DNA of 64,000 nucleotides from Salminus brasiliensis (lineage: Eukaryota; Chordata; Actinopteri; Characiformes; Bryconidae), in NCBI RefSeq assembly GCF_030463535.1, contig NC_132900.1, positions 24,483,456 through 24,547,455 of the forward strand, given 5' to 3'. A program made the translations under genes and the position numbers. This document shows positions 19,075-41,808 of the stretch, piece by piece. Each line of letters opens with the position of its first letter. The stretch's first letter is position 1. A model generated the notes under the pieces. It searched no databases, was not told the origin of the DNA, and worked only from the letters and a program-made list of their open reading frames with translations.

Positions 19075-19337
19075 TATCTCGCTTCTCCTATTGGTGACTA
19101 CGTTTCAGTGCTCTGTCCTGATTGGTCTGTTGCTTGGTGTCAGACGTGAACTGTTCATTCATAATAGAGGAGCCATTTTGTTGGGAAGGTAGAGATGAGA
19201 GTGACTATTGCTGTTAGTTTCGGGGTTTAGATGTTGTTTTCACACCGTGTGAGAAACGTCTTCACTCAGACCTGCAGCACAAATAACCAGCCTGTGTAGA
19301 ACGACTGGCTTTCGCCATCAGAACCCTGAAGAAGTGG
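19075..19337 (+). promoter_or_regulatory. Gene A promoter and non-coding exon 1 (pnrc2-like)
   Basis: Inverted CCAAT boxes (ATTGG) lie at 19090 and 19121, exactly 31 bases apart as in the pnrc2, C and D promoters. A YY1-like GCCATTTTGTTG follows at 19172. Exon 1 text GTTAGTTTCGGGGTTTAG, CACACCGTGTGAG and CAGAACCCTGAAGAAGTGG matches the pnrc2 exon 1. The donor is at 19338 (GTAAAT). A second YY1-like CTGCCATGTTGG sits about 47 bases into the intron. The transcription start is not defined. Confidence 0.75.
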
Positions 19338-19896
19338 GTAAATCTATGTGTTTATATCCTTTACTGTTGACAAAGCCTGCCTCTGCCATGTTGGAGGTCT
19401 TTTGTTTTGCTGTGGAGTCAGAATTCATGATTTTCAGTCTCAGTATGTTCAATCTAGGTGGCTGTACTTCTTTACCATTTAATTTCCTGTGTAACAAAGG
19501 GGTTGTTACTTGGATATTATACTAACTGTGTAACAAATCATGCACCAGTGCAACCAACAGTGTGATGAACAATTTTTATTTGTTTATGTTTGCTTGTAGT
19601 TAACTCATCTTTCTCTGTAGGTTTCAAGAATATAATTGCCAGTGGTTTTCTTAGGTTGTCCTAAAACACATGCATCCTTCATTATCATTGAATAAGAAAA
19701 ATGACTACATTTGTGTTGCACACAGGTTTGTGTTTGACCTCTTCCTTTAACCTGTCTGTGCACACATTGAGGGGACAGTAAACACACCGCCCAGAGCAGT
19801 GGGAATCCCCAGCTGCGGTGACCAGGGAGCCGTTTGAGGTGCCCTAGTTACCATGGTTGGGAAGCTCTTGCAAACCTTATCCCACTATTCGAATAA

Positions 19897-20165
19897 GAAT
19901 CAGAAATACTTTACTAATCCCAGGAGGGAAATTGCAGTTGTTACAGGTGCAACCGTTCATGTCAGAATAAACACTCTATAAAATAAACACTCTATAAAAT
20001 AAATGTAAAACAAAGAGAGAATCAAATTAAATATATACATGAATACATGAATATAGTAAAGTGGCATAGTGGTAATAACTGTGATAATAAATGTGGGAAA
20101 TTATTGCACACATTAAATTGAATTACAGTACTATTATTCAGTTTAATATGTGTGCAATAAAACTG
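19897..20165. repeat. Fish LINE/SINE 3'-tail-like repeat in gene A intron 1
   Basis: The piece ATACTTTACTAATCCCAGGA then GGGAAATTG resembles the tail motif common to many fish retroposons (a related TCCTTTATTAGTCCC motif occurs at 59009). It is followed by a short 18-bp direct repeat of AATAAACACTCTATAA. Family not assigned. Confidence 0.45.
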
Positions 20166-20599
20166 GTGCAATAATTTTCCATATTCCTAATCAGTGTGTT
20201 TACAGTGTCAGTCATGCTGAGTCGAAGTAGGTGTTCTAACAAAACACTAGACTGTACAGGACAGGGGCACTCCAGTACCAGAGTAGGCACATTGTAGTGC
20301 ATTGAAGGAGCTAGGGCCAAGATTCCCAATCCCAGTCCAGGGTCAGAGTTGGGAACTTGTGTTGTAATGTATGGCTATTGGATGTTGCTTTGGATGAATT
20401 GTGACTTAACAAACCTCAAAGATGAGAACCTTTGCATGTTTGTTTGTTGTGTTTCTTTTCCCATAAAGGTGACCTCCAGTTTGAGCAATATGGAGCATCC
20501 TAAATAGTGGGTTCAGCTATTTTTTCTCCAGCCTGCTGCTAATGGGTGAACTTCAAGTGTACAGCCCTGCAGGTGCCATACACAAACACTGGCTATAGA

Positions 20600-21494
20600 A
20601 TGGGTCGCAATGAAGAGCTCAGTGACTTTCAGCGTGGGGCTGTCATAGGATGCCACCTTTCCAGGAAGTCTGTACGTGAAATTTCTGCCATGCTGGAGCT
20701 GCCCCGGTCCACCGTAGGTGCTGTTATTGTGAAGTGGAAACGTCTTGGAGTGACGGCACCTCTGCCACGAAGTGGCCGGCCTCACAAGCTCTCAAACCAA
20801 GACGTCCAAGTTCTGGAGCGCGTAGCAAGCGAAAATCGCCTGTCCTCAGTTACAGCACTCACTACTGAGTTCCAGACTGCCTCTGGAAGAAGTGTCAGTC
20901 ACAGAACGATTCGCAGAGAGCTTCGCAGTTTGGGTTTTCGTGGTTTAGAGGCCGCACGGAAGCCAAAGGTCATCAAGCGCATTGCAAAGCCTGTCTTAAA
21001 ACCAAACAGCAAAGAAACAAGTGAGACGAAAGAAAACACGGTTTCCAGTGCTGAAGGGTGAGTTTTCTTTTCTCGCTAATGAAGGGTGTGTGTTTTTTTT
21101 TTTTCCATTTCAGTCTGGAAAGTCTGGTGGTAATTCAGGTCCTTGTTTGCATCAGACAAGAAATGTCAGATGCAGGTTTACCTTCTGAAGGAATGTGGAG
21201 TTCAGTAATATCGAAGTTTTTCCATATAAGAACATCTGAAGTTGGAGAGAAGCCAATTCACCACAGCCATATTACCATATTCATATATCCCTTCTCAGTG
21301 TGACTGCTTTAATTTATTTTTAGGTTTCTTAATTAACTTTTAATAACAGTCTTGTATGACACTCAGTACTCTGTTTGTGTACATTTGTTAGATTTTTAAC
21401 ACATTACCAAGTACAAATAGTAAAATAAGCTCTTGTTGTTAGGAATCCCAGTGGCGGTCAAGAGGATCAGGGACAAACGGATACCCATTTGTGA
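20600..21494 (+). CDS. Gene A: Tc1-derived double-HTH DNA-binding protein
   Basis: Exon 2 runs from the acceptor at 20469 (CATAAAG) to 21057; exon 3 starts at 21443 after TTGTTAG. CDS is 20600-21057 joined to 21443-21494, 169 residues. The start is the ATG of MGRNEELSDFQRG, the position where Tc1 transposases begin; an upstream GTG gives a longer frame but is Tc1 leader sequence. Residues about 5-50 form HTH 1, PRSGRPHK (57-64) is an AT-hook-like linker, and about 65-115 form HTH 2. A basic tail RKPKVIKRIAKPVLKP follows. There is no DDE catalytic domain. The exon-2 frame hits TGA immediately after the donor (GAAGG/GTGAG); splicing instead adds a short tail (NPSGGQEDQGQTD) ending at an early stop compared with genes C and E. 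The expected role is sequence-specific DNA binding in the nucleus, inferred only. It is the first of five tandem paralogues. Confidence 0.7.
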
Positions 21495-23154
21495 CCCGAT
21501 CAGGTAACCACAAGGGGAGCTGACAGGAAAAAAGTTTCTTTCAACTGTTGAGACTCATCTTAAGCCCTCCTCTCTTTCTGCACGTGAAGACACTCTGAAT
21601 GTTTGTTTGTTGTTTCACATCATATTAAGCGTTTAGCAGCCTCTGAAGGACCTGGACCTGAATGTTTGTATGGTGTTCTCACAGACTTGTATAGAGGCAT
21701 CTCTCGTTCCTTCAATGTTCTTTGGAAGCCATCAAGGCCAACATGGGATTTGACCTTGGAACAGAGTTGTGTTGCCTATTAAATGTCTTGTACATGGTCA
21801 TGAACCACTCCAAGCCCACATATTATACTAACATTTCAATTGTAGCCTTATTTTGCCTGATTTACATATCATTGGCCTAAAGGTTTTAATTATTTTTTGA
21901 AGTCTGTAGTGTACCCTTAGAAAGGGGTTCTTCAGTGGGTCTTTAGAGAAGACTGTGGTGCTATAGAGATATATGGGGAAAAAACAGACATGTTTTGCTT
22001 AGTTAGATGGCTCTTCATATTTAATGAAGATATTTTATAGATTTTTTTAATAGAACATTAAAAAAAGTGGTTCTATGTAGCACCAAAAAAGGTTCCACCA
22101 TCACCTTTTGCTTAAGCATATGGGGCATACCGAACCCTGTCCTTTTTCTGTTCTCTATTTGCACTTTTATGTGGCGGATTTTATTTGGGCCTTTTGAATT
22201 TAATTTTTTTTTAAATAAAATACACAAGCATGTGTTTAAGAATGTGATGTACTGAGACAATTTCTTTAATTGTTCACCCGTCGGCCTAATCCAGCACTTT
22301 TATACGTTTCTCCTTCATTATTTGTCTATTTAAAACACCTGTAAACTCCTGTAAGGTCTGTTTTTCTATAACATTTTTAGAAACTCCAGTTTGTGGTCTT
22401 TTGTTGTCTGTTAACATCACATAAATGATGAATGGGTGCGTAATCAGCTGTGTTTTTGGGGGAATGTCGAGGTCCCTCTCTAATCCTAATGCCTGCAGAT
22501 TCTGAGCTTTATAGGATCTCAGTCTCATGCTCCTATCAGAACATCTGCTGACACTGTCTGCGTTTTTTTTTTTTTTAATGATGTAGCGTAATTAATGAAT
22601 CCTCCACGTTATATTTCAGTTAAACACACGGGCAGTCAAAAAGAGTTGCTCATGAGAGCAAGGAGAACCAACCCATTATGGACGTTAACAGTGCTTATAA
22701 GTGTGGTGTAGTTCTTTCTCTGGCCCTGATGACCTTCTCACACCGCTTTGTCATCTTTTCTGCTGCTGCTTCTTCTTTTCTGCTGTACACAAAGCTTTTA
22801 CAGTGGCTGGGTCCCCCAACTCTCATTGAGGTTTGAATATGGCACCTGTGCTGTCATGGCAAGACCTGACTTTCCACACACAAACCACAGCCCCTTCAGA
22901 TTCTTACTTGAGTATATCTAACATTACACAGTGGTAGTTACGGACCTCTAGGTGAACTTGGACCCTTAAATATCTCACGTTAGAGTCAAAACTAACTGAT
23001 GGGATCGTGACGAGGCCTTTTCTTTTTGAACGTTTTTACACACTAACTGGAGTGGAAAAATGACGCCTGTTGTGTTACATCTTCACGTTCACGTATTTAG
23101 ATAAATATGAAAATACGGACTGTCCACTGTAATCTGTGTTTAGACGTCTAACAT
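21495..23154. other. Spacer between genes A and B, partly duplicated elsewhere
   Basis: No gene. Segments match the spacer after gene B (for example 21520-21800 against 27780-28060, sharing TTTCTTTCAACT and the piece ending in TGTACATGGTC). The part at 22480-22760 matches the spacer before gene E (37600-37700 and 37955-38010; both share TGACACYRTC-type text and GTGTGGTGTAG). This is the footprint of tandem segmental duplication. Confidence 0.6.
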
Positions 23155-23368
23155 AACCGCTTTGTCCAGCTGGTGAGAGGAGGGCGCTAAAGCAGCGGTT
23201 TGGAAGCGATGCTTTGAAAGCCCGGAGCAGAAGAAGTGGAGCGTAGTTTTCGCCGTGTTTCGGGGTTTAGGGGTTGTTTACATACCGTGTCTTTCATGAG
23301 GAGGTGCAGCATAAATAACTATCCTGTAAAAACCACTGGATTTCGCTGTCAGAACCCCGAGGAAGTCG
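23155..23368 (+). promoter_or_regulatory. Gene B upstream element and non-coding exon 1
   Basis: This copy has a different upstream block from A: CCGCTTTGTCCAGCTGGTGA and GGAGGGCGCTAAAGCAGCGG, shared with genes C and E. It is followed by the common exon 1 (TTTCGGGGTTTAGGGGTTG, CAGAACCCCGAGGAAGTCG) and donor GTGAGT at 23369. No CCAAT pair is present. An intronic YY1-like CCGCCGCCATGTTGG lies at 23421. Orientation and start are inferred from the shared exon. Confidence 0.65.
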
Positions 23369-23640
23369 GTGAGTCGATGTTTGTTCGGTTCGGTTCGGTT
23401 CTGTTTGTTAGCAAAGCCCCCCGCCGCCATGTTGGGGAGGTACTTGTCTTTGTTGCGGTGTGCAACCAGAATTCATGAACCACATTTTCTGTTTATCTAA
23501 ATGTATGTATTCAAGACTGAGATGGTCTGCAGGCGTCACAGTTTAATTCACTAATAGTGTCTGAATTGATAAAATTTTACAGTTACATTGTTCAGTTAAA
23601 TGAGTAGCGGTAGGGCTGCCAACTTTTACAAATTTACAAG

Positions 23641-25400
23641 GCTGGTCCATTGGAAGGGAATATAGGGATGGGGAGACGAGGCCGGTCCATTGGAAGGGAA
23701 TATAGGGATGTGGAGACGAGGCCGGTCCATTGGAAGGGAATATAGGGATGTGGAGACGAGGCCGGTCCATTGGAAGGGGTTATAGGGATGTGGAGACGAG
23801 GCCGGTCCATTGGAAGGGAATATAGGGATGGGGAGACGAGGCCGGTCCATTGGAAGGGGTTATAGGGATGTGGAGACGAGGCCGGTCCATTGGAAGGGAA
23901 TATAGGGATGGGGAGACGAGGCCGGTCCATTGGAAGGGAATATAGGGATGGGGAGACGAGGCCGGTCCATTGGAAGGGGTTATAGGGATGTGGAGACGAG
24001 GCCGGTCCATTGGAAGGGAATATAGGGATGTGGAGACGAGGCCGGTCCATTGGAAGGGAATATAGGGATGTGGAGACGAGGCCGGTCCATTGGAAGGGGT
24101 TATAGGGATGTGGAGACGAGGCCGGTCCATTGGAAGGGAATATAGGGATGGGGAGACGAGGCCGGTCCATTGGAAGGGGTTATAGGGATGTGGAGACGAG
24201 GCCGGTCCATTGGAAGGGAATATAGGGATGGGGAGACGAGGCCGGTCCATTGGAAGGGGTTATAGGGATGTGGAGACGAGGCCGGTCCATTGGAAGGGAA
24301 TATAGGGATGGGGAGACGAGGCCGGTCCATTGGAAGGGAATATAGGGATGGGGAGACGAGGCCGGTCCATTGGAAGGGAATATAGGGATGGGGAGACGAG
24401 GCCGGTCCATTGGAAGGGGTTATAGGGATGTGGAGACGAGGCCGGTCCATTGGAAGGGAATATAGGGATGTGGAGACGAGGCCGGTCCATTGGAAGGGAA
24501 TATAGGGATGGGGAGACGAGGCCGGTCCATTGGAAGGGAATATAGGGATGTGGAGACGAGGCCGGTCCATTGGAAGGGGTTATAGGGATGTGGAGACGAG
24601 GCCGGTCCATTGGAAGGGAATATAGGGATGGGGAGACGAGGCCGGTCCATTGGAAGGGGTTATAGGGATGTGGAGACGAGGCCGGTCCATTGGAAGGGAA
24701 TATAGGGATGGGGAGACGAGGCCGGTCCATTGGAAGGGAATATAGGGATGGGGAGACGAGGCCGGTCCATTGGAAGGGGTTATAGGGATGTGGAGACGAG
24801 GCCGGTCCATTGGAAGGGAATATAGGGATGTGGAGACGAGGCCGGTCCATTGGAAGGGAATATAGGGATGGGGAGACGAGGCCGGTCCATTGGAAGGGAA
24901 TATAGGGATGTGGAGACGAGGCCGGTCCATTGGAAGGGAATATAGGGATGTGGAGACGAGGCCGGTCCGTTGGAAGGGAATATAGGGATGTGGAGACGAG
25001 GCCGGTCCGTTGGAAGGGGTTACAGGGATGGGGAGACGAGGCCGGTCCGTTGGAAGGGGTTACAGGGATGGGGAGACGAGGCCGGTCCGTTGGAAGGGGT
25101 TACAGGGATGGGGAGACGAGGCCGGTCCGTTGGTAGGGGATACAGGGATGGGGAGACGAGGCCGGTCCGTTGGTAGGGGATACAGGGATGGGGAGACGAG
25201 GCCGGTCCGTTGGTAGGGGATACAGGGATGGGGAGACGAGGCCGGTCCGTTGGTAGGGGATACAGGGATGGGGAGACGAGGCCGGTCCGTTGGTAGGGGA
25301 TACAGGGATGGGGAGACGAGGCCGGTCCGTTGGTAGGGGATACAGGGATGGGGAGACGAGGCTGGTGCATTGAAAGGGGTTATAAGGATGGAATGACAAG
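23641..25400. repeat. 40-bp minisatellite, 44 units, in gene B intron 1
   Basis: The period is exactly 40 bases throughout (44 x 40 = 1760). The unit starts GCCGGTCCATTGGAAGGGAA and ends ATGTGGAGACGAG or ATGGGGAGACGAG. Units 1-33 carry CCATTGG; units 34-43 (24961-25360) carry CCGTTGG, and from 25121 also GGTAGGGGATAC; unit 44 is diverged. Two positions (AA or GT before TATAGGG, and T or G in ATGTGG/ATGGGG) vary in patchy higher-order patterns. All reading frames are open by chance of composition and none is a gene. Confidence 0.97.
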
Positions 25401-25967
25401 GTTGGTTCATTGAGATTCTCCCCACCAGCAATTTACAACTAGCAAGTACTGTTTGTCTGATTTAGGGGGCTTGACTGAACCATTTCAGCAAAACTAGATG
25501 GTGTGATGGGGTAATAATTTAATATTGCAAAAACATATTAAGAGGTTTATCCAACTTTACCCAGACAGGACTTGTTTTTAAAGTGCATTGGACTTTTTTG
25601 TTTCTTTGAAAACTTGACACTAAATAGATGCTTTGTTCTATTCATAAAGGTCATATTTGTTCAGTAGAACCACTCCAAAGTATTTAATCTTTCTAAAGGC
25701 ATTTAAGAAAAAAACAAACCAAAAAACAACCCATAAATACATGTTTTGTGAGTTTCTTCCAGCATTGAAGCATCTAATCCAGAACCAAGTTATGAACCTT
25801 TTTTTCCTGTCTGTCTTAAGGTGACATCAAGTGTGGGATGGATAACTCTGCATTGTGCAAAGTATGTGGACACCACTTCTAATTGGGAGGTTCACCTATT
25901 TCAGCCACACTCGCTGTTAACAGGTGAACATCAACCGTACAGCCCCACAGACTTCACCGGCAGCAGA

Positions 25968-26695
25968 ATGGGTCGCAGTGAAGAGCTCAGTGACTTTCAG
26001 CGCGGCACTATTATAGGATGCCACCTCTCCAAAAAATCGGTACGTGAAATTTCTGCTATGCTGGAGATGCCCCGGTCCACTGTAAGTGATGTTATAGTGA
26101 AGTGGAAGCGCCTTGGAATCACAACGCCTCTACCACGGAGTGGCCGTCCTCACAAGCTCTCAAACCGAGACATCCAAGTGCTGGAGCGCGTTGCAAGTGA
26201 AAATGGCCTGTCCTCTGTTACGGCACTCACTACTGAGTTCCAGACTGCCTCTGGAAGAAACGTCAGCCCCAGAACGGTTCGCCGGGAGCTTCACAGTTTG
26301 GGTTTCCGTGGTCAAGCGGCTGCACGCAAACCTAAGGTCGTCAGGCGCATTGCGAAGCCTGTCCTAAAACCAGCTGGCAAAGAAACAAGCAAGATGACAG
26401 AAAACACAGATTCCAGTACTGAAGGGTGAGTTTCTTCTGTGGCTATTTTTGTTTTTCTGTTAATCTTGGTTTTATGGTTTGACGCTGTCAAACCAGTTTC
26501 ATGTGTATTTCTGGATCTTCTAACAATTTAGTTCATCAGTTACAAATGGTAAAATGAGCTCTTCCTGTCAGGAACCCCAGTGGCGGCAAAGACAATCAGG
26601 GACACACTGTTGCCCAGACCTCGTCTGAGCCAGCAGCCCAGTCTGCAGATGGAGAGGTCTCCTCACCAAGCAACAGCACTGAAGCCCAGAGCTGA
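25968..26695 (+). CDS. Gene B: Tc1-derived double-HTH DNA-binding protein
   Basis: Exon 2 begins at 25821 after CTGTCTTAAG; CDS 25968-26425 joins 26572-26695 (acceptor TTCCTGTCAG), 193 residues. It starts MGRSEELSDFQRGTIIGCHL. The HTH 1 core is SVREISAMLEMPRSTVSDVI, the linker PRSGRPHKLS, and HTH 2 includes GRNVSPRTVRRELHSLGFRG. No transposase catalytic domain follows. Exon 3 reads NPSGGKDNQGHTVAQTSSEP and AAQSADGEVSSPSNSTEAQS before TGA. It therefore stops about 26 residues short of the C and E tails. A 14-codon upstream ORF (25838-25882) precedes the start, from the fossil pnrc2 start region. The 40-bp minisatellite fills most of its first intron. Function is inferred from the domain only. 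Confidence 0.72.
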
Positions 26696-27483
26696 GGACC
26701 TCCATGTCATCTTACTGAGCATAGACTCTGCAGTGGAAAATGAACTTAGAGAGTCTCGTGACACTAGAGCGTGAAAGACAGCACAACAAGCTGTTTGAGT
26801 GGTGTACAAGTTGACTGCACCCCAGAATAGCTAACGCTGGCCTGTTCTACATGGCAGAATATAACATACAGAAGATGGGAGATTCAAGCCCTGTGACCAG
26901 TGTTTTCAGATGTGCTCATGTCTGTCATTAAGTACATTGACATGCACACCAATGGTTGATGACTGATCTTCTAAGTAAGCTGTAATCATAAAATCAGTTT
27001 GATTACAGGGCCTAGTTGAGTTAAGCTTAGTCTGATTAAAATGTGATCCAGGCTGATGAGGAGGATGGGGTTTTAAGCCTTTGTTTCTCTGGCGTAGTAC
27101 AGTGGGTAACAGTAACGTGTTTCTAGTGGCAGTCTAGGGTTTGATTCATTGGCTGGGCAAAACCCCTAACACAGGATTCTCCTACCTGTGTAACTTCTCG
27201 TAAGTCACTAACTAATGATGTCTTGCACATCAAACGCAATATTTTGCACTGTGAAAATGCAACATGTCTGCCCCCTGTTCTAGACTTTCTATACCAGTCA
27301 CTGTTGCTTCTGGGGTTACCAGCCACAAAGATGGATCTGCTGTATGTCAGCATCTGATCTCCGCAAAGACCAGAAGAACGGTTTGTCTCCCTTGTTTTTG
27401 GAGTTAAAACAAGTGTGGGGAAACACTCAGCTGCATCTTAAATACTAACATGAAACTCCCTTCCCTGCCTGTTTGCCTAGGCA

Positions 27484-27722
27484 CACCGTTCACTCATGGC
27501 ATTAACATGCGTCTTGAGTGATCCAATCACAAATGATTGCATGAAAAACACCTGGTTGTTCACACCTGGCATTTTAAATGTGAACTCTTGTGATTGGATT
27601 TTTCACATCATTTCTGCTGGAGAAGGACATCAATAGTTAATCAAGAAGAGGCTGTGGTTTAAGCGGCTGGTTAGATTAGATCATCAAGGATGCATGTGAA
27701 TGCCAGGTGTGAACAGAGCCTA
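27484..27722. mobile_element. MITE-like element with inverted ends
   Basis: The left end ACCGTTCACTCATGGCATTA plus ACATGCGTC is mirrored at the right by GCATGTGAATGCCAGGTGTG plus AACAG, about 35-40 bases of imperfect inverted repeat. An internal copy of the same motif lies near 27556-27575 (GTTCACACCTGGCATTTTAA). There is no coding capacity. Target-site duplication was not resolved. Confidence 0.55.
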
Positions 27723-29040: not shown

Positions 29041-29544
29041 TAGCGCTAACCGTTTTGTCTAGCTGGTGAAAGGAGGGCGCTAAAGCAGCGGTTTAGATGC
29101 GATGCTCTAAGATCCCGGGGCAGAAGAAGCAGAGCGTACTTTTCGTTGTGAAGTTTCGGGATTTGGAGTTTTTCTGCGGTTTTTCTTTCTTACCTGTGTA
29201 AAAACATTTTACCTTAGAAAACCGTGGCGTGTGAAGAACCTCCACACACCGTTGCCTAGTCAGTGACGTAACAAAGGTAGCGCAGAGCTTGCCAATTGTT
29301 GCTATTGGACAATACGCCTCGGTGGTCGCTCCTGATTGGTCGGTTCTCGCTAGCCGTGAACTACTTATTCTTTATGGAGGCGCCATTTTGTTTTGTGTGA
29401 GTAGAGGAGAGTAATTTTGATTGTTAAGTTTAGGGTTTAATAGTTGTTCACACACGCGAGGAGCGTTTTCACTCAAAGCTGCAAAATAAATAACCACCTT
29501 AAATCAAACCATTGGTTTTTGCCGTCAGAACCCGGAGGAAGTCG
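29041..29544 (+). promoter_or_regulatory. Gene C double promoter and non-coding exon 1
   Basis: It carries both upstream types in series: the B/E-type block (GGAGGGCGCTAAAGCAGCGG, 29071-29090, with a following exon-like TTTCGGGATTTGGAG), then the pnrc2/A/D type. The latter has ATTGG boxes at 29304 and 29335 (31-base spacing) and CCATTTTG at 29383. Exon 1 ends CCGGAGGAAGTCG with donor GTAAGT at 29545. An intronic GCCGCCGCCGCCATGTTGG lies at 29587. It may use two start regions. Confidence 0.72.
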
Positions 29545-31700
29545 GTAAGTCGTAAAATTATTCACTTCTGTTTGTTAACAAAGCCCGCCGCCGCCGCCAT
29601 GTTGGTGAGGGGCTTTCATTGTTATGGTTTCAGTCAGAATTGATGACCGACATTTTTGTCTCCTTTACTTTTTATTTAAATGCGTCATTTAGGACTGAGA
29701 CTGTCTGTGAAGTTCGCTGTTTAGTTGGTAGCTATTTGTTTACTTCAGCACTTTGCGGTTAGCTATTAGCTACAGTATGAATGAGAGGCTGATGTAGTTA
29801 CAGATACGCGCTGCTAGATAAGTGTGTTGCAGTTGTTATTTGGGGGATTTTTCGTCCAGTCTTCCTAAAAAGGCTCCTGGTTCTGTGAGCTTTCTGGCCC
29901 GTCGTGCTGCTCTTTTGGAGTCCATGCACCAATTTGTTTTTAATGGTGTTTAGGCCTCCTGCGAAGGCAAAGTCTTCAGCTTGGACTCTTCAGGGAGTGT
30001 AAACATGCCTGTTAGGCACACTACAGGCTTCGAGCTTGGACTACTTAGCATAAAGAAAAAGTATTCGCACCATCTTACTTACAAATAATGTGCTTATTAT
30101 TATTATTAGCTACATATATTCTGCGATTTAAAGCCAGTCAGAAAACTATACTCAGAGATGGCTATCCATGTGTTCATATAGGCTGGTGGCCATTTTAAAA
30201 GCTGTAGCTATGAAAACTTTGGCCAAGAGAGTCCCATATATTGACTTTTCTTTATTATTATTTTTTAATGTTTTATCTTTTGAAAATGTGGGTGTCATTT
30301 GCTTTTTGCAAACTGACCAGATGTTTTAAACTATGCATAGCATGACTTGGATCTGAAAAATTGTTTTAAAGTAGTCCAGAGATATGGCACAGGTGCTGGC
30401 TATATAGTTTTAGAGATAAGCTAGCCTAGAGATAAGATTGTGATACACCAGTATATTATACCACTCCTTTACTGGCTTTTATTGTAAAGATCCACAACAC
30501 AGTACATTTTCAATTTACTAAGGTGAACAGTTTTAAAGAGTTCATATTATTGTGAGGCAGGCCTAAAGGGTACAGTACTCTGACAAGAAAAAGTAGCTAT
30601 AATTTAATAAACATTCAAGTGTTGGCTCATATTAAGGCAACATACATTTTGATGTCTAACCTAGATTTATGTTGAATGTTGTGATTAAAATGTTATTTTA
30701 TCAAATAGCTGATGCTAAAGTTAAGCCTAGCATGCTCCCATTAAGCTTATGTACATTGACTTTATGATCTATTTACATACCGACTTTAGAAGTTCCCTGA
30801 TGCTTGTCACTTTAAATGAAGCTTTAAAAGTACTTCTGCAATATTACAATGACAGTCTTAGACACTACGAATACACGTATTTAATAATAGATTCAGCAGA
30901 CAGTTGTGCAAGCTAGTTTGTTCTGCTTGATGTTGTATAGTTGGCCTTGAGGTAGCTGTTACTGCCTGTGGTGAATTAGCAGTAAAATGTGTCAAGGAAT
31001 TCATTTTTTTGTGCTAGATAAGCAGCCATTGGCAGTTGTTTCCAGTCTGAGCTACACTGTGCAGTTCTGCAGGGGGATTCAGGGCTCTCTCAGTTTTACA
31101 ATGTTTTAAACATGATTGATGTATGAAACATTACAGAAGTCCTGCATAATTAAGCATTTTCTTGGAAACGTTTATGTTGCATCCATCCCCATCGTTTATT
31201 GGTATTGACAGTCGACCAATTGGTGATTGGTAAAGGCCTCAAAAGTACTGACTGGTCCATTTCTAGATCATAATGTCTTGTATTATTATTATTATTATTG
31301 TTTTTCAGACAGTACAAACGGCACATGAGCTAAAGAATAAAGTAAAAGACAACCGAGAGAGACAGGGAAATGTTCCCTGTGCCACTGATTTTAGATGTTT
31401 CTTTGAGTTTTGTTGAGTTGAGATGCTTTTCTTCTCATGTCTGTTCTATGAAGTTTAAATGCGACACTTCCGATCCAACCTTTGGTGGAATGCATTATAG
31501 CATGTATACAGTGTAATGCATACCTGGTGATTGTTTGTTGGTAGAACATGCTGTTAATACTGTTTTTCTTTTGTCTTAAGGCGGCATCCAGTATGACCAA
31601 TATGGGAAGTGAAGGATACTCTGTATTGTCAAAGGAATGCTAACGAGTGAACATCAAGCGAACAGTCCCACGGTCTTCGTACACAAACACTGGCAGCAGA

Positions 31701-32897
31701 ATGGGTCGCACTGAAGAGCTCAGTGACTTTCAGCGTGGCACTATCATAGGATGCCACCTTTCCAAAAAATCGGTACGTGAAATTTCCACAATGCTGGAGA
31801 TGCCCCGGTCCACTGTGAGTAGTGTTATAGTGAAGTGGAAGCGTCTAGGAATCACGACACCTCTACCGCGAAGTGGTCGGCCACACAAGCTCTCAAACAA
31901 AGACATAAGGGTGCTGGAGCGTGTAGCAAGCGAAAATCGCCTGTCCTCTGTTATGGCACTCACTACAGAGTTCCAGACTGCATCTGGAAGAAACATCAGC
32001 CCCAGAACAGTTCGCCGGGAGCTTCACAGTTTGGGCTACCGTGGTCAAACGGCCACAAACAAGCCTAAGGCCTTCAAGCGCGCTGCAAAGCCTGCCTCAA
32101 ATGCTGCTGACATGGAAACAAGTGAGACGAAGGAAAACACGGTTTCCAGTAATGAAGGGTGAGTTTCTTGTGTGTGTTCCATGACTGATTTTTAATTTGT
32201 ACACTTGGTAACTTGCATACAGACAAAATTATGTTAAGTAGGCTTTTGTTAAAGCTGCTTTCACACAGAATGCAGAACATTACCTTCTGGCTTTTAGCAC
32301 ATTCAGTGCAAGAGCAGTAAGTGTGTCTGGTAGTTCTTTCCAACTGTGAGGAAAGGTTAGTTTTGTTTCTTTACACAAGCTGTATAATACCAGTCTTTGA
32401 ATGGAAGCATGGAAGCGGGCGTCTGCCCAATATGGTCTCCCAGGTTTGTACCAGTGTTTAAAGTAGCTAAGAAGAGGGAATCTCAAAAAATAAACTTGCA
32501 ACAGAGCACACAAACTTGCAACTTATGCGCAATGGTGTTGACTGCAGATTGTGCTGTCGTGAATAACCGTTACACATTAACCGAGCTGCAAAGAACTCTA
32601 CACAAAAAGGAAGTATTTAGCCTTTAACAAAGTTGTATAAGAAACTGAAAAAAACACCCCATCAGTTACAAGTACTAACAAGGTCTTTGTGTTAGGAACC
32701 CCAGCACCTGTGAAGAGGATCAGGGACCCGTGGATGCCCAGACAGCATCTGAGCCAGCAGCCCAGATTGTGGATGGAGAGGTCTCCACACCGAGCCACAG
32801 CACTGAGGCCCAGAGCAGAGATTTAAAGTCGTTCGAGGCCTTCCCCTTTATGGATTTGAACTTTACCAATGACGCTTCTTTTGGTTGTTTAAACTAA
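31701..32897 (+). CDS. Gene C: Tc1-derived double-HTH protein with full new C-terminus
   Basis: Exon 2 starts at 31581 (acceptor TTGTCTTAAG). CDS is 31701-32158 joined to 32696-32897 (acceptor TTGTGTTAG), 219 residues. It starts MGRTEELSDFQRGTIIGCHL. It has two HTH subdomains separated by PRSGRPHKLS and a basic segment TNKPKAFKRAAKPAS, and then exon 3: NPSTCEEDQGPVDAQ, a Ser/Glu-rich stretch, and an aromatic-acidic end FEAFPFMDLNFTNDASFG closing CLN-stop. That end resembles a transcriptional activation segment (inference). There is no DDE domain. Upstream in exon 2 a short ORF starting at the fossil pnrc2 ATG (MGSEGYSVLSKEC) precedes the coding start. Its tail is nearly the same as that of gene E, which supports real coding constraint. 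Confidence 0.78.
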
Positions 32898-33276
32898 TTA
32901 TAATGCCACAATTACTAAAAAAAAAAAAAACTCAACTGTTTCATTTGAGGTTGCATGTTTTGAGAACATGTTGATGAGCTTTTTTGACTGCTAACGTTTC
33001 TGCCGGTTATTTTCCTGATTATTTTTCTTGTAATGTTCTGAAAATAATTAAACTGTTTCAAGTTATGTTCCAAATTGTATGGCGTTCTCTTTCTATTGTC
33101 ATAGAAATAAGAGTGCTTCCATACATTTCTAAATGTTTCTCAGTGTAACTGTGGTAATTTCCCAAGTGTGAGTGTAGTGACAGAAGTTGCATGATCACCC
33201 TCCCCCCTTTATTATTATTTTTATTTTTTTATTGCATTTTTTTTAAACGTTATTACGAAGCAACTTTACAGGAATC

Positions 33277-33277
<1 letters not shown>

Positions 33278-33307
<30 letters not shown>

Positions 33308-33320
33308 ATATATATATATA
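33278..33320. repeat. (TG)n(TA)n microsatellite
   Basis: About 13 TG units followed by six TA units. Confidence 0.9.
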
Positions 33321-34574
33321 AAAAATTTCTTTTTTTTTTTTAAGTTTATATATGGTTTATGAACTGTAGTTTAATTATCTGTAACCCCTTTAAATCATAG
33401 TGTATCATTACATTTTGAACAGCTAATTTTCTGTATTACAAAAAGTAATACACATTTTATACAGTGTGTCTGAGCTATAGTCCGAGACAATGATGGGACT
33501 GAGAGCTGTAAGAGACCATGTGATATACTGTGCTCAGATTTATATTTGCATTTTGTATGTTTATTTTTATGCATGCATATATAATCATATAAACCATGGA
33601 GCTCTTTTGTGGTTAGATAGGCTTGTATATATCATGAGCCTCATTTCCTGAATCCTTGAGTGAGCACATGGATTTTGTTAGTGGAACGCAATGAGCCTGG
33701 GGTGAGTTGTTTTGGCTAACTTAAGCAAAGCTAACTTCAATAAGCACTGCTATTTTTTTTTTTTTTTTTGTCCATTTCTCTCCTAGCAGCAGTCCTGTGG
33801 TCATAATGACTATGTCTTTTTCCGCTGGACAACTGGCCCCAAGGTCCAAGTTCAGGTTTATATTCGTTTGACATCTAGGGTGATCAATTAGAACGTGACT
33901 GGTGTCCAAGTCTTCGCTTCTTTAGTTCTGGAGCTACAAGGCTAACATCGCTGACAAGCACTAGAAGTCAGGACTCATCCAAATCACAAATCCACGCCCA
34001 AAGCATTTTTCATCCTACTATTGTTGAGGTGTTGAGTGTGAAACCACCTCAGTCTTCAGCCGCACGAGTTAATGTTTATAGAAAGTAACTATGCCCTAAA
34101 CCAAATGAGCAAGTCTAGGCCACCTTAATCAAGACATGGATGACCTTCAAGATTTTTAGGATTTGGGTGACTGTTGACTCCCAGTGAATATTTCCAATGT
34201 TGTAGCTCCAGTTCAAATCTAAAGACACAAAATGGGGACACCAAACATGTCTTAGCTGGTTCACTGCATTTGAGTTGACACCTGTGTTTTGTAACACTTT
34301 TATTTGGATATGAGAATAATGGTTGCTATGAAATATTGCTCATGGTCTTAGCAAGAATCTGAGAAAAATCCAATGGTATATATGTAAGCATTTCAAGACA
34401 TCCGAAAATGTTCAAAAGTATAGACTGGGCTTGACTGAGAGGGCAAAACTGTCCCATTTCATTTAGATGAACATTGTTACATTACATATACATTAAATAT
34501 ATAACATATTTATTCAGTTAGTGTTCGTACCATGGAATTTAATGGAAAAAACATTGATTATCTTAATCTACAGA

Positions 34575-34830
34575 GGCATGGTTTGGAAGGGTTGCCAGGA
34601 GGAAGCCTCTTGTTCCTAAGTGAGAACATGGCAAAGTAAAGAACAGCAAAGTATTCTAGAGTCAACTGTGAGGTCGTCTACCCAACAAATTGGGTCATGC
34701 AACAGAACAATGAGCCCAATCACACCAGCAGATCTACAACAGAATGACTGAAACAAAAAACTCCATGTCAAAGTCCCAATTGAAACGATGTGGCAGGGCC
34801 TTAAGAAAGACCCCTAAGCAAAATAAAATA
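34575..34830 (+). pseudogene. Fragment of a Tc1-type transposase
   Basis: The text ATGCAACAGAACAATGAGCC, ATCACACCAGCAGATCTACA and CAGAATGACTGAAAC corresponds to the QQNNxPxHTSRSTTExLK region around the second catalytic residue of Tc1-type transposases. It is followed by a piece like the SPDLNPIEMLW region with stops and deletions. Too short to assign to a subfamily. Confidence 0.45.
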
Positions 34831-36112
34831 AAGCAGAGGAACCAGAGCTGGCAGAATATTTCAGTAATATATTGTTTACTAAAAAGATTAAGGCTTTACA
34901 AGAACAGTTAGTGTTAACTTGACTTGCCCAGGTACATCTGATTTGACAACCTATTGGAATACTTTCTTAAACTCTTTTCAAGTGAGGATGTGTCGTCATC
35001 AGTCTCATGCTCACCCTACCCCATTTCTTCACTTCTGATGACATCATTCAAATATGTTGCTTCTTTTAACTGTATTTGAACTTTTTAAGAACTTCTTCCA
35101 GTTTCTCAAACATTTGACTAGTATTATTTCTGAAAAAGAGATGCTGTATGAGAGATAATCACTTAATGGGTTTCGCCCTGGTCAAGGCCACTAGCCCTCC
35201 TAGAAACCCTGATCTTTGAGTTAAGACCTAAGTTATGCTGATTGCGTCTCCTTGAACACTAATGTCCCCAATCAGTTGAGTCACACTGCACACCAATTTA
35301 TCTATAAAAACTGTATATTTGATCTGATATTGATAGCTTGTATTATGGAACAGCGCAAAAGTGCCTGTAAAGTGCATGTTAATATGTCTTTATTTTGTGT
35401 TTTACTACTGCAAAGAGACAATTCACCATCTGCACTCAGTTTTCCACTCACCTTTACATGTGATTATGTGGCGTGATAATAAATGGGATATGATTTAATT
35501 TGATTTGTTCCAAAATGTGGACACAAAACATCATCCAGCTGATCCACCATCTTGGTTAAGTGAAAGACTGTAAATTATTCTTGTAATTTCCTTTAACAGC
35601 CTTGAGTTATATCAACACAGCCATATTGTTTAATCAGTATGTACTGTATTATTGCTGTTATTGTGAAATATATTTCCATATAGTACCATAGTAGTATAGT
35701 AGTATTACATTAGTAGTTGTAGCTGTTATGCAATGGGTGTTTTACCCAGCATTTAAAAAAAGAAATCTAAAGGTCAAAACTCAACAGTATTAAAATATTA
35801 TTTATTGTATTTTTTTGTAATTCAGTATTCCAGGTACACAAACCTGAATTTGATATATATATAAGCTGTGTCGTGACGGTAATAAAATGCAGCTCTAAAA
35901 TCTGATCATATGGGGATCATATGATCATACATTTTCAACACGGACATATTTTTTTATTAGTCATTAAATGTACATCCAAAACTGCAAAACAGGAGAAGCA
36001 CGAGCAGCTGGCACTGCTCACAGTGTCAACAAATGAGAGGAACAAGAAAGAGGAGTGAAAAATCTGATAGATGGAACTTGTGAAATGTTATATGTTCAAC
36101 AACATAAACAAA

Positions 36113-36116
<4 letters not shown>

Positions 36117-36187
<71 letters not shown>
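36117..36187. repeat. (AT)n microsatellite above gene D
   Basis: About 34 uninterrupted AT units, ending roughly 115 bases before the gene D CCAAT boxes. Confidence 0.95.
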
Positions 36188-36189
<2 letters not shown>

Positions 36190-36279
36190 ACACACGATAA
36201 ACCGAAAACGAAGTGTTTTCCTGTGTGAGAAACCTCCACTGCCTGGCTCCAGAAGACGTAGCGCTAACTACGGCATCAA

Positions 36280-36566
36280 CAAGCCCGCCTCGCTCCTCCT
36301 ATTGGACAATGCGCCTCGGTGTTCGATCTTGATTGGTCGGTTCCCGCCAGACGCGACCTGCTCATTCTTGATGGAGGCGCCGTTAGCGGAGGAGAAGAGG
36401 CTGAGGAGAGGAGAGGAGTGAAGAACAGAGCAGAGTAATCTTGGCTGTTAGTTTTGGTTGTGTAAAGGTTGTTTACACACCGTGTGAGGACGTCTTCACT
36501 CTGCAATATTAATAACCAGCCTGTATCAAACCACTAGTGTTCTCCACAGGAACCTCGAGGAGGTCG
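36280..36566 (+). promoter_or_regulatory. Gene D promoter and non-coding exon 1 (pnrc2-like)
   Basis: ATTGG boxes at 36301 and 36332 keep the 31-base spacing. The YY1-like site is degraded (GGCGCCGTTAGCGG in place of GCCATTTTG). Exon 1 ends CCTCGAGGAGGTCG with donor GTAAGT at 36567. Intron 1 is only 194 bases and lacks the intronic YY1-like motif seen in the other copies. Confidence 0.7.
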
Positions 36567-36887
36567 GTAAGTCTATTTTTAGGGACACCACCCCTAAAAT
36601 CTTTTTCAGCTCTGACGCATCTGATCCAGGACCACACCTGGGAATCTTTGGAGGAATGCATTATTGCACATATGCAGTGTAATGCACCTAGATAGTTACT
36701 GTTTTTAGAAGAGAACCTGCTGTTCATGCTGTTTATCTTTCTTTTCTGTCTGTCTTAAAGCATTGTCAAAAGTATGCGGACACACCATCTAATTAGTGGG
36801 CTCAGCTATTTCAGCCACACCCACTGCTAACAAGTGAACATCAAACGAACAGCCCCACAGTCTCTCTACCCTAACACTGGCAGCAGA

Positions 36888-37319
36888 ATGGGTCGCACTG
36901 AAGATCTCAGTGACTTTCAGCGTGGCACTATCATAGGATGCCACCTGTCCAAAAAATCGGTACATGAAATTTCTGCCCTGCTGAAGATGCCCCAGTCCAC
37001 TGTAAGTAGTGTTATAGTGAAGTGGAAGCGTCTAGGAGCTCCACCGCGAGGTGGCCGGCCACAGAAGCTCGCAAACCGAGACATCAAAGTGCTGGAGCGC
37101 GCAGCAAGTGGAAATGGTCTGTCCACTGTTACCGAGGTCCAGACCTCCTCTGAAAGAAACATCAGCCCCAGAACGGTTCACCAGGAGCTTCACACTTTGG
37201 CCGCAAAAAGGGCCGCAAACAAGCCTAAGGCCATCAAGCACATCAAGCCTGTCCTAAAACCAGACAACAAAGAAACTAGTGACACAAAAGAAAACACTGG
37301 TTCCAGTAATGAAGGGTGA
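36888..37319 (+). CDS. Gene D: shortened Tc1-derived double-HTH protein
   Basis: Exon 2 starts at 36761 after TGTCTTAAAG. The ATG at 36888 gives MGRTEDLSDFQRGTIIGCHL and 143 residues to the TGA at 37317-37319. It has 30 nt fewer than the other copies before the donor position, lost in several small deletions that all preserve frame: the linker reads GAPPRGGRPQK, the region before HTH 2 reads STVTEVQTSSERN, and the segment after it reads HTLAAKRAANKPK. The donor at the end of exon 2 survives as GTGACT but no exon 3 counterpart was found in the following 3 kb. The pnrc2-derived leader of exon 2 is missing, and exon 2 begins directly in Tc1 terminal-type sequence (CATTGTCAAAAGTATG). It may be a degenerating copy or a shorter isoform. 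Confidence 0.55.
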   Translation: MGRTEDLSDFQRGTIIGCHLSKKSVHEISALLKMPQSTVSSVIVKWKRLGAPPRGGRPQKLANRDIKVLERAASGNGLSTVTEVQTSSERNISPRTVHQELHTLAAKRAANKPKAIKHIKPVLKPDNKETSDTKENTGSSNEG

Positions 37320-37844
37320 CTTTTCTTGTGTGTGTTAATTTTTATTTTTATCTTTACACAAGGTTCTGTTTGGGAATGTGACCTATTGTGAGAATTTCTC
37401 TCACCAGTCTTTCCGTACTGTTATGCTTTTATCCATTATACCATTTTTGCCCATTGCAAAGAACTGTAGACTCATGGAAGATGTGTTTTTCTATTAAATT
37501 AATGAACTACAAATGATGTTTTTCATTTGTGGTCTTTTCACATGATATAAATAAAGAATGGTTGTGTAATGAGTCGTGTTTTGGTAAATGTCAAGTTCCC
37601 TCTCTTATCCTAGTGGCTGCAAACTCCCTGTTTTATAAGATAGCAGTCTCATGCTCAAATCAGACATCAATCAATCTACTGACACCATCAGTGTTTTTTT
37701 TAAATGATGTAGCATCTTTGGGTTAACGTAGAAAAACAGCAGAGTGGTCACCTTATTGACTTGTGTCTTATCTTTAGTAGTGTCTAAACTTAGAGGTATC
37801 TTTGAATTTTTTGGCCTATTCAAACTAGCTGAGGTTTTTCTTGG

Positions 37845-37917
37845 GTAAATAGCAAAGCACTTTGGACAAAGTCGCTCTGGATAAGAGTGTCTGCTAAACG
37901 CCTTAAATGTAAATGTT
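37845..37917 (+). repeat. SINE 3' tail
   Basis: GTCGCTCTGGATAAGAGTGT followed by CTGCTAAACGCCTTAAATGT is the widespread 3' domain of fish tRNA-derived SINEs. The tRNA head is missing. Confidence 0.65.
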
Positions 37918-38399
37918 AAATGGCATAAGATCAAACAGTAATACACATTAAGAGTGTCTACCAGTGTGGTGTAGCTCCTCCTCTGGCCTTGATGACCGTC
38001 TCACACCGCTTTGTTTTATGCAACCAGGCACAGGTACTCAGGACTGAAGAAAGTCCAGCCTAACTCAAGACTTTCCAGTGAAATACGTTGTTGGGAGTGA
38101 CGACACACCACAGCACTTTCTCATGTTTTCACAACATTCACACAAAATCTAAGGCTGTAAAATTGACCTTAAGAAAGCCCTTAGGTAAAACTCAAGACAT
38201 TTTCGCACTTAACTCTAACCCTTTCATGAATGGTGTCCACTATAGTGGACACAGAGTGATAAGCCATAACATAAATACCACCTGAGGACAGATAACAGAT
38301 CTGACCATTCGACTCATGGACTCCACAAGAGGGCCTTCTGTGGTATCAGCCACCAAGACGTTAGCAGCAGATAAGTTGTGTAGTAAGTTGTGAGGTGGG

Positions 38400-38640
38400 G
38401 CTTCTGTGGATCACATTAATTGACCCTGTCACCGGTTCACAGGTAAAAGGTTCCTTTCTTGAACTACTTTTGGTAGGTACTGACCACTACATACTGGGAA
38501 CACCCCAGTATTTTTGGAGATGCTCTGACCCATCCATGTCATTTTTCCTGTTGTTAACAACGTCACCTTCACAAACTGACTGTTTACATGGTGGCTAATA
38601 TAGCCCAACCCTTAACAGACGCCACTGTAGATGAAGATAC
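38400..38640 (-). pseudogene. Decayed Tc1/mariner-type HTH fragment (tentative)
   Basis: On the minus strand, GGGTCAGAGCATCTCCAAAA and GGGGTGTTCCCAGTATGTAG with TGGTCAGTACCTACC resemble the LGQSISKT..GCSRSAVVS region of a fish Tc1/mariner-type DNA-binding domain. Frames are broken. It is unrelated in detail to the A-E domain. Confidence 0.45.
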
Positions 38641-38792
38641 TCATAATATATGGGCATTTCTTAAACCTTTACTGTGTTGCTGAATAATTGATTTATTAAT
38701 ATTCCCTAAAAGCTACCCTGGAATATTACATCATAAATCCAAAATGGTGGCTGGCAGTGGACATCATCATGTGATATCTGGTAGATCTTATA

Positions 38793-38874
38793 AATGTGTT
38801 TATTCTTCAAAGAATAAACACATTCTTTGAAGAATTATTCTTCCAGGACATAAATTGGTACAATTTATGTCCTG
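38793..38874. repeat. Two adjacent perfect palindromes
   Basis: The first has 15-base arms 38793-38807 and 38810-38824 (AATGTGTTTATTCTT) with a 2-base loop. The second has 14-base arms 38844-38857 and 38861-38874 (CAGGACATAAATTG) with a 3-base loop. Between and overlapping them, ATTCTTCAAAGAAT (38802-38815) recurs in inverted form at 38822-38835. Confidence 0.85.
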
Positions 38875-39419
38875 ATCAAGTTGTAGGGAATACCAATTTA
38901 ATCAATATTACCACACTAGTGTTTACATATCATTTATGAGGACCCATTAAGTCATTTGGGTAAAATAGCATTAGAATAGAATATAGTAATAGAATGATAT
39001 AGTTATCTAAATACTTTATTAATAAATTGTTAATAACTGTATAGTATATGGTAGTATATATGTTATATTCAGAAACATTTTATTCTACATATATTTCAGT
39101 ATTATCTATTATTTCTTCCAATATAACATTATTATATTATATTTTAATATAAATGTACGTGTGTGCCAAAAAATCAGTTATCTTCACGTTATACATCAAA
39201 TGGAAATTTAGCAACATTATTTAAATATCATAGAAATTATAATAGATAATCATTTATGTTCTTTTTGTGTGGTCATAGCTCATTTCATATCGTAATTTTG
39301 CTGGAATGTATAATAATATGATAAAATAATAATATGAATAAAAGGCTTTATATAATGTTAAAGTATTGCTTTTATACTAAGTACACCTATATATTTTTGT
39401 GTTTTTGAATGGAAAATTC

Positions 39420-39421
<2 letters not shown>

Positions 39422-39485
<64 letters not shown>
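39422..39485. repeat. (AT)n microsatellite above gene E
   Basis: About 31 uninterrupted AT units followed by three copies of GCAATAT or near variants. Confidence 0.95.
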
Positions 39486-39488
<3 letters not shown>

Positions 39489-39759
39489 ATATGCAATATG
39501 CAAATATTGCAAATATTTAAAATCATGTCTAGTACATTCGTTTGTTTAGGAATGCTGTGTGCAACAGGCGTGACATCTAGTGGTCATGTGCTGCTACTAC
39601 ATCAACAGTGCAACAGTTCCTCTCTCTGAACGTTTTTGAGGCCTGTCTGAGGTGCTGTAGGACGGGCGTTTGTGTTACAGCATGTTAATACGTTCGCGTG
39701 TTTTAGAGCAGTCTGGTTATATGGACTGTTCACTGTCGGTGTTGGTGTTTAGACACCTA

Positions 39760-39986
39760 ATCTAACCGCTTTGTCCAGCCGGCGAGAGGAGGGCGCTAAA
39801 GCAGCGGTTTGGATGCGATGCTCTGAAAAACCCCCGAGCAGAAGAAGAAGATCGTAGTTTTTTTAGTTGTTAATTTCGGGGTTCGGAGGTTGTTTACGCA
39901 CCGCGTGGGACCTTTTACAATCAAAGCTGAAGCAGAAATAATCAGCCCCTGTCAAACCAGCGGCTTGGCTTGCGCCGTGGAAGTCG
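39760..39986 (+). promoter_or_regulatory. Gene E upstream element and non-coding exon 1
   Basis: B-type block CCGCTTTGTCCAGCCGGCGA with GGAGGGCGCTAAAGCAGCGG (39788-39807) and GGATGCGATGCTCTGAAA, then exon 1 text ending GCCGTGGAAGTCG. The donor region from 39987 is a tandem run of 8-base units (GTAAGTCG twice, then GTAGGTCG variants), offering several equivalent donors. An intronic YY1-like GCCGCCATGTTGG lies near 40064. Confidence 0.65.
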
Positions 39987-40887
39987 GTAAGTCGGTAAGT
40001 CGGTAGGTCGGTAGGTCGGGTGCCTGTTGGGTTCTGTTGTGGTTGTTAACAAAGTCTGCACCCGCCGCCATGTTGGAGAGGGACTCTCATTGTTATGATG
40101 TGGAGCCATAATCCATGACGTACACTTTTTAGGACTGAGCAATTTTTGTTATTAGCAAAATTCACAGTTTAATTCGGCTGGAGTCTGAATAAAACACATT
40201 TTTTTGTGAGTTTTGTGAGATTCCTGGGCCGTCGTGCTGCACTGTCCCGTTGCGGTCTATCTGCAGAGTTTAGATGGTGTTTAGGCAGAGGAACCTTCAG
40301 CTTGGACCTCCTGAGGTAGTTCTGGTGCTAGTTTTCTTTTAACCAGATCTTTGCTTCAGAATTTGCTGCTATTTAATTAAAACCATTCTTCTCTCCACCT
40401 GTGAAATTTTATCTGTGCCACTGGCTGCAATGTAATGCCAAATCTTGATCAGTTCACCCCCCTGAGTTCTTTATTAACCAAATCCAGCATTTTCCAATAT
40501 GCATCAGACTTGGTTCTTGATCACGTATTGTGACATTTCTTCTAATGTCTCTTCCATGAATGTTAAATGCATGTTTCAGTTTTTTTTTTCAATTTCTGAC
40601 ACATCCGATCCAGGTTTCCCCGAAAGGTGGGAACCCCTGGAATGCATTTTAGTACATATAGAGCATGATGCAGACAAAGTAACAGATTTGTCCTTTCTTT
40701 TCTGTCTGTCTTAGGTGACCACCAGTGTGACCAGTATGGTAAGTGGTGAAGGATACTGTGCATTGACAAAAGTATGTGAACATCCCTTCTAATTAGGGGG
40801 TTCAGCTGTTTCAGCCACGTCCACTGCCAACGAGCGAACATCAAGCATACAGCCCCACAATCCCTGTACACAAACACTGTCAGTAGA

Positions 40888-41808
40888 ATGGGTCGCAGCG
40901 AAGACCTCAGTGACTTTCAGCGTGGCACTATTATAGGATGCCACCTTTCCAAAAAATCGGTGCGTGAAATTTCTGCCCTGCTGGAGATGCCCCGGTCCAC
41001 TGTAAGTAATGTTATAATGGAGTGGAAGCGCCTTGGAATCACAACACCCCTACCGCGAAGCGGCCGGCCACAGAAGCACTCAGACAAAGATAACAAAGTG
41101 CTGGAGCGTGTGGCAAGTGAAAATGGCCTGTCTTCTGTTATGGCACTCACTACCGAGGTCCCGACCTCCTCTGGAAAAAACGTCAGCCCCAGAACAGTTC
41201 ACCAGGAGGTTCACAGTTTAGGTTTCCCTGGTCAAACAGCTGCAAACCATGCTAAGGTCATTAAGAGCAGCGCAAAGCCCGTCTTAAAACCACCCAGCAA
41301 AGAAACAAGGAAGACGAAAGAACACACCGTTTCCAGTAACGAAGGGTGAGTTTTCTTGCGTGTGGCTGTTTCTTGTTTGGATATTTTTCATCACCTTAGG
41401 TATCTTAAGTGCACAGACAGAAATGCTATTCATTAGTAATTACTCAAACATTTAATAAGACGAAAATGCACCACACAACAACAAAAAATCATATTTTAAC
41501 ATATAAATATTTGGACACTCTACCCTTGCCTTTAACAAAGTTGTATAAGAAACTGAAAAAAAAAACACCCCTTCAGTTACAAGTACTTACAAAGTCTTTG
41601 TGTTAGGAACCCCAGTGTCTGTGAAGAGGATCAGGGACACATGGATGCCCAGACAACAGCTGAACCAGCAGCCCAGTCTGTGGAGGGAGAACTCTCCACA
41701 CTGAGCCACAGCACTGAGGCCCAGAGCAGAGATTTAAAGCAATTTGAAGCATTCAGCTTTTCTGATTTGAACTTTACCAGTGATGCTACTTTTGGTTGTT
41801 TGAACTAA
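40888..41808 (+). CDS. Gene E: Tc1-derived double-HTH protein with full new C-terminus
   Basis: Exon 2 starts at 40715 after TCTGTCTTAG. CDS is 40888-41345 joined to 41607-41808 (acceptor TTGTGTTAG), 219 residues, the same length as gene C. It starts MGRSEDLSDFQRGTIIGCHL. It has two HTH subdomains with the linker PRSGRPQKHS and a basic part NHAKVIKSSAKPVLKP. Exon 3 gives NPSVCEEDQGHMDAQ, a Ser/Glu-rich stretch and FEAFSFSDLNFTSDATFG-CLN-stop. No DDE residues. The exon-2 leader is the best-preserved fusion point: it starts with pnrc2-type leader, has the pnrc2-like MVSGEGY codons, then Tc1 terminal-type sequence. This leaves an 18-codon upstream ORF at 40736-40792. It is the copy nearest pnrc2 and probably expressed if the promoter works. 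Confidence 0.78.

Follow-up and report, generated by a model that had tools for sequence, protein, structure and literature searches.

How does the DNA-binding part of a transposase come to stand five times in a row behind the first exon of a host gene, and are the resulting units genes or debris? The question is raised by a stretch of 64,000 nucleotides from the fish Salminus brasiliensis (contig NC_132900.1, C27:24483456-24547455, in a 1.07 Gb genome; hereafter the window). Five plus-strand units, A to E, are located here upstream of pnrc2 (46.3-48.4 kb, Pfam PNRC), between that gene and a gene for a rhodopsin-family receptor, provisionally named cnr2. Each unit has a non-coding exon 1, whose donor can be aligned with that of pnrc2 exon 1, followed by an exon 2 that contains an ATG and encodes the helix-turn-helix (HTH) region of a Tc1-type transposase. 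Purifying selection acts on this DNA-binding domain in A, B, C and E, while D has decayed. Considered jointly, the evidence makes it probable that A-E are host genes born from a Tc1 insertion in a duplicate of pnrc2, and that they now likely act as DNA-binding regulators.

Purifying selection on the DNA-binding domain in A, B, C and E

The second exons lie at 20469..21057 (A), 25821..26425 (B), 31581..32158 (C), 36761..37315 (D) and 40715..41345 (E). A preliminary description of this DNA had placed their start codons at 20600, 25968, 31701, 36888 and 40888, and all five are confirmed, as is the coding length of exon 2 up to its GT donor, 458 nucleotides for every unit but D, which has 428. The splice signals predicted for the junctions of exons 1 and 2 (19337-20469, 23368-25821, 29544-31581, 36566-36761 and 39986-40715) are likewise present in all five units. 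Pfam bears out the assignment of the encoded proteins to Tc1-type HTH domains lacking a DDE domain. HTH_SB is listed for all five, above the curated cutoff in A-D and at 40.8 bits against a cutoff of 43 in E; HTH_Tnp_Tc3_2 exceeds its cutoff in A, B and C only, falls under it in E, and is not listed for D. No DDE family is listed by Pfam for A-E, the open reading frames (ORFs) of which stop after the HTH region. The first HTH domain is akin by sequence to a solved relative, the PAI subdomain of the Sleeping Beauty transposase (PDB 2m8e, E-value 1.4e-5).

Selection on a host protein derived from this domain, as earlier proposed for the whole array, was assessed with a purpose-written codon model, fitted to exon 2 of all five units over 152 codons on the unrooted topology that scored best, ((A,B),C,(D,E)). 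The ratio of nonsynonymous to synonymous rates (dN/dS, omega) is 0.436 under model M0, and twice the log-likelihood difference (2dlnL) from omega 1 is 28.6. When single branches are given their own omega, the values and their 2dlnL against 1 are 0.31 (11.7) for A, 0.17 (13.6) for B, 0.38 (5.8) for C and 0.42 (5.0) for E. The D branch stands at 1.01 (2dlnL 0.0) and differs from the rest (2dlnL 5.0). Of the two lowest values, only that of B departs significantly from a single shared omega (2dlnL 4.35; 1.29 for A). Constraint is found in codons 1-60 (omega 0.28) and codons 61-122 (0.44).

The distribution of insertions and deletions (indels) leads to the same distinction. Between C and E there are 0 indels in 458 + 202 = 660 coding nucleotides versus 34 in 786 aligned non-coding nucleotides, the latter spread over exon 1 (5 in 133), the exon 2 leader (3 in 119), the 3' untranslated region (12 in 193) and upstream DNA (14 in 341). 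None of the five pairs compared among A, B, C and E shows a coding indel. D and E are separated by five, two of which are not multiples of three but jointly keep the frame. Of 5000 runs of a neutral simulation that started from C and used the fitted branch lengths, 3 ended without a stop in any of the five sequences. On the indel pattern, the absence of stops and omega, the notion that the units are decaying transposon copies is rejected. Thus, the claim of selection is supported for A, B, C and E, also by the restriction of the family to this locus and by in-frame stops in 14 of the 15 next-best relatives fetched. It does not extend to D, whose omega of 1.0 and altered donor (GTGACT, where A has GTGAGT), together with the failure to find an exon 3, speak against a working member.

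A pnrc2 fossil joined to a Tc1 end

The origin of the units can be followed best in E. At its acceptor and over its first 42-44 nucleotides, E exon 2 is 83-84% identical to the beginning of the coding exon of pnrc2 (47859..48359, ATG 47880, 159 residues), including the pnrc2 ATG itself. This fossil, which occupies 40715..40756 with its ATG at 40736, reads M-V-S-G-E-G-Y where pnrc2 begins M-G-G-G-E-R-Y. C exon 2 keeps the same start-codon piece; the preliminary description had overlooked the fossil in both units. Homology to pnrc2 in E stops at the TAC of codon 7, 18 nucleotides past the start codon, and from this break onward, E exon 2 aligns with old Tc1 relics located elsewhere in the genome. 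The Tc1 left end in E (40754..40887) comprises the TA at 40754-40755, a remnant of the inverted repeat and the 5' leader of the element.

Ten of the 15 Tc1 relic loci searched match E exon 2. In four of these (L006, L010, L013 and L016), the match starts at 40752-40753, coinciding with the TACA(C/T)TATA ends of the relics themselves, and in four others it begins further inside the exon. Paired inverted repeats, sought in all 15 loci, were found in two (L010 and L016). A search with the DNA of the E leader added three further relics that match from a few nucleotides inside the break; L030 and L031 aligned well to the leader, and L028, aligned on one strand only, gave no good match to it. TA is the insertion target of Tc1 elements. 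Since pnrc2 homology ends and the relic ends begin at the same TA, Tc1 appears to have inserted at the TA of codon 7. The birth event, insertion into a pnrc2 duplicate at this site and subsequent tandem copying, is readable in the DNA: pnrc2 exon 1, acceptor and start-codon fossil are joined to a Tc1 left end and an HTH ORF.

The earlier statement that no terminal inverted repeats remain is thus incorrect as regards the left end. Upstream of the ATG, such an end is retained by B (a remnant at about 25840-25880), D and E and, incompletely, by C. The right end was not found: an 18-base probe with up to 3 mismatches has four sites in the window, all on the plus strand, and thus there is no right end among them. 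At 15009-15026, about 0.9 kb from the receptor gene (13065-14132, Pfam), the Tc1-end probe of the family matches a site with 2 mismatches. Individual units have suffered further losses. D lacks the pnrc2 piece, A lacks most of the left end and C part of it.

All five units carry a pnrc2-like non-coding exon 1, as earlier described, at 19150..19337 (A), 23250..23368 (B), 29390..29544 (C), 36370..36566 (D) and 39860..39986 (E), related to pnrc2 exon 1 at 46340..46527; the starts of all six are approximate. A promoter copied from pnrc2, as earlier claimed, is borne out in A, C and D but not in B and E, where pnrc2 homology begins inside exon 1. The DNA upstream of B and E is of another kind, resembling a second segment that lies upstream of C. 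In the stretches scanned, CCAAT boxes are present for A, C, D and pnrc2 and absent for B and E. Because D and the pnrc2 promoters of B and E fail, the earlier interpretation of the array is only partly supported. Intron 1 of B consists mostly of a 40-bp tandem repeat, with about 44 copies at 23639-25391.

As read from the sequence, a tandem duplicate of pnrc2 appears to have received a Tc1-type transposon at the TA in codon 7, so that exon 1 and the splice acceptor, both derived from pnrc2, came to precede the start codon of the transposase itself. Gone from the units are the DDE domain, the right end and what remained of the pnrc2 coding exon, whereas a new tail and a third exon have been added, the order of these steps being conjectural. 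The fusion was copied in tandem into at least five units, of which A, B, C and E kept a DNA-binding-domain protein under purifying selection while D decayed.

Possible roles of the encoded proteins

Third exons are present in A, B, C and E, as predicted, and none was found for D. Their coding parts lie at 21443..21494 (A), 26572..26695 (B), 32696..32897 (C) and 41607..41808 (E). The proposed length of 219 residues is correct for C and E and incorrect for A, which encodes 169 residues, and B, which encodes 193. B stops at a codon where C has an arginine, and A has a truncated exon 3 that lost this C-terminal part. In C and E, exon 3 is open in one frame only, and the last 25 codons have an omega of 0.28 between the two (2dlnL 3.5). 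Exon 3 is therefore supported by its open frame and by the absence of indels, and weakly by codon rates. The C-terminal stretch shared by C and E holds five conserved phenylalanines and four acidic residues and, judging by this composition, could serve as an activation or docking motif. No source of exon 3 came to light in pnrc2 or elsewhere: at the DNA level, its matches in the window are A, B, C and E only, and at the protein level, its matches across the genome are B, C and E only, so that it is found nowhere beyond this locus. Nor does pnrc2 appear to have contributed a protein domain. A DNA search with its coding exon recovers the first 42 nucleotides of E exon 2 and no later part in A-E, and a Pfam scan of the exon 2 proteins lists PNRC for pnrc2 and not for A-E.

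A whole-genome protein search, in which 150 places were scored of 10,288 first-look candidates, returned five at an E-value below 1e-50, all of them in the window; there are no dispersed copies of A-E among those scored. The next-best 15 relatives fetched (L006-L020) are 44-53% identical, and 14 of them contain in-frame stops (L012 has none). The cognate Tc1 family seems to be dead because these nearest relatives are decayed. Lower among the matches listed are many intact-looking frames of 348 residues with about 37% identity, which belong to another Tc1 family. Scans of viral contigs (22 pattern matches) and of bacterial and archaeal genomes (84 pattern matches) for relatives gave none that was confirmed. 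A 30-base Tc1 end, allowed up to 3 mismatches, has 665 + 614 = 1,279 sites in the genome, and the reversed control has 0. Short derivatives of several families probably account for a good part of these end-like sites.

Based on these features, the most likely role of the proteins would be that of nuclear DNA-binding regulators of Tc1-end-like sequences. C and E would carry their acidic, phenylalanine-rich C-terminus as an effector, and A and B may act as domain-only competitors. The two domain-only proteins have the lowest omegas, which suggests that binding itself is the selected act. A more elaborate version, in which the tandem paralogues with a tail (C and E) and without one (A and B) compete at about 1,300 previously scattered Tc1-end sites and feed back on the Tc1 ends in exon 2 of B, D and E, is rather doubtful.

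Several observations weigh against the view that A-E are host genes with such a role. Binding to Tc1 ends is an assumption, and no effector domain is identifiable in the family. In the free-ratio fit, omega is about 1.28 on two short internal branches; the B-D pair alone (omega 0.67, 2dlnL 2.1), the tail codons 123-152 of exon 2 (0.69) and exon 3 between C and E (0.75, 2dlnL 0.4) are not different from 1. Upstream ATGs, some being the fossil pnrc2 start, occur in each of A-E and would lower translation; pnrc2 has zero in the stretch taken as its leader, given that exon 1 starts are approximate. The breakpoint is not equally sharp in all comparisons, as matches to L008 and L018 begin 6-7 nucleotides further left and L010, when aligned more loosely, likewise extends beyond it on that side. 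Finally, none of ten fetched loci from the 1,279 end-like sites has an HTH match at an E-value of 0.01, and the leader of L041 looks alike by eye. Several element families therefore probably share this end.

It is conceivable, if somewhat unlikely, that A-E are domain-only transposase fragments kept to block Tc1 transposases at transposon ends, and thus serve genome defence rather than the regulation of host genes. Fragments of this type that compete at transposon ends are known in other elements, and this notion would fit the low branch omegas of A and B (0.31 and 0.17) despite their lack of the C-terminal extension, as well as the abundance, among the matches listed, of intact-looking Tc1 frames. 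These frames are only distantly related, however, and the cognate family that such fragments would be expected to block seems dead, with stops in all but one of the nearest relatives fetched. In addition, C and E have retained the longer exon 3.

An improbable explanation is that the array arose by tandem copying of a pnrc2 pseudogene that carried a dead Tc1 insertion, its frames left open by recency or chance. The relaxed state of D, the loss of most of exon 3 in A, translation made uncertain by upstream ATGs, and exon 3 codon rates that do not differ from neutral are all consistent with it. It is strongly disfavored by omegas below 1 on the terminal branches of A, B, C and E, by zero coding indels versus many outside, and by the rarity of stop-free outcomes in the neutral simulation.

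Less probable still is that the first exons of A-E chiefly provide pnrc2 with alternative promoters or regulatory transcripts, the ORFs being a by-product. The units do share their strand with pnrc2, and their exon 1 donors align with its own, but constraint resides in the codons of exon 2, where synonymous change is tolerated, and ATTAAA signals follow the stops of C and E by 150-160 nucleotides. An assembly artefact, in favor of which nothing was found, is extremely improbable because the copies are 14-18% apart in exon 2 (six pairs measured) and are ordered on one contig of 32.8 Mb.

Known systems and neighboring duplications

By the time the birth of a transposase-derived gene is inferred, the joint has usually long been eroded. 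Here it can be read almost to the base, and the fusion is common to several paralogues, one of which has decayed. With a readable joint, a decayed D, and a possible effector tail in C and E versus A and B, the steps from insertion to regulator become testable. A-E would also represent, to our knowledge, a fish gene family with a Tc1 domain that lacks any host protein domain. In the vertebrate host-transposase fusions reportedly described by Cosby et al. in 2021, splicing is said to have often joined a transposase domain to one of the host, KRAB for example. A, B, C and E resemble these in a transposase DNA-binding domain under purifying selection. The family differs in that the first coding exon took the insertion and that its partner, exon 3, contains no recognized domain. 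A-E resemble the Sleeping Beauty transposase by sequence in their first HTH domain, but they have no DDE domain, have no right inverted repeat that could be found, and are confined to one locus.

Closest in kind appears to be the Caenorhabditis F-box A2 family (fbxa-215 and kin), in which a host gene took up the HTH of a Tc1/mariner transposase a single time and the product expanded into a family (PMC12062965). There, an F-box/FTH protein received the domain, whereas here the host gave exon 1, the acceptor and, in some copies, the promoter but no protein domain. The chimeric Xenopus gene dm-W similarly has a first exon that is non-coding, host exons that were duplicated and a coding exon derived from a transposon (PMC9250109); in that case, non-coding DNA of a hAT element became the C-terminus on a host DNA-binding domain, whereas here the transposon supplied the DNA-binding domain. 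A term search of an article on transposon-derived transcription factors (PMC10027918) yielded nothing on Tc1 HTH domains or teleosts, the sole mention of Tc1 being in the title of a reference. Among the open-access matches listed, titles and the openings of abstracts include no Tc1-domain gene family of fish and no association of pnrc2 with a transposase.

Further signs of duplication and of transposons occur in the window. At 44440-44546, in the interval separating E from pnrc2, part of the coding exon of pnrc2 recurs (93% identity over 107 nucleotides) and represents a further partial duplicate. A copy of the pnrc2 3' region lies at 57011-57189 (90.6% identity), and the ORF translations at 48.7-49.7 kb and 57.3-58.0 kb resemble each other; a segmental duplication downstream of pnrc2 is therefore likely. 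Many Tc1 elements are present in the window, among them a decayed Tc1/Sleeping Beauty-like element on the minus strand (8360-9391), with its HTH and DDE pieces in separate ORFs and both under the Pfam cutoffs. Minus-strand ORFs at 51370-54579 and 61405-62689 resemble, from a reading of their translations, repeated C-type lectin domains. Elsewhere in the genome, a pnrc2 paralogue (L026, G000:C1:35964710-35964865) is 68% identical to the last 50 residues.

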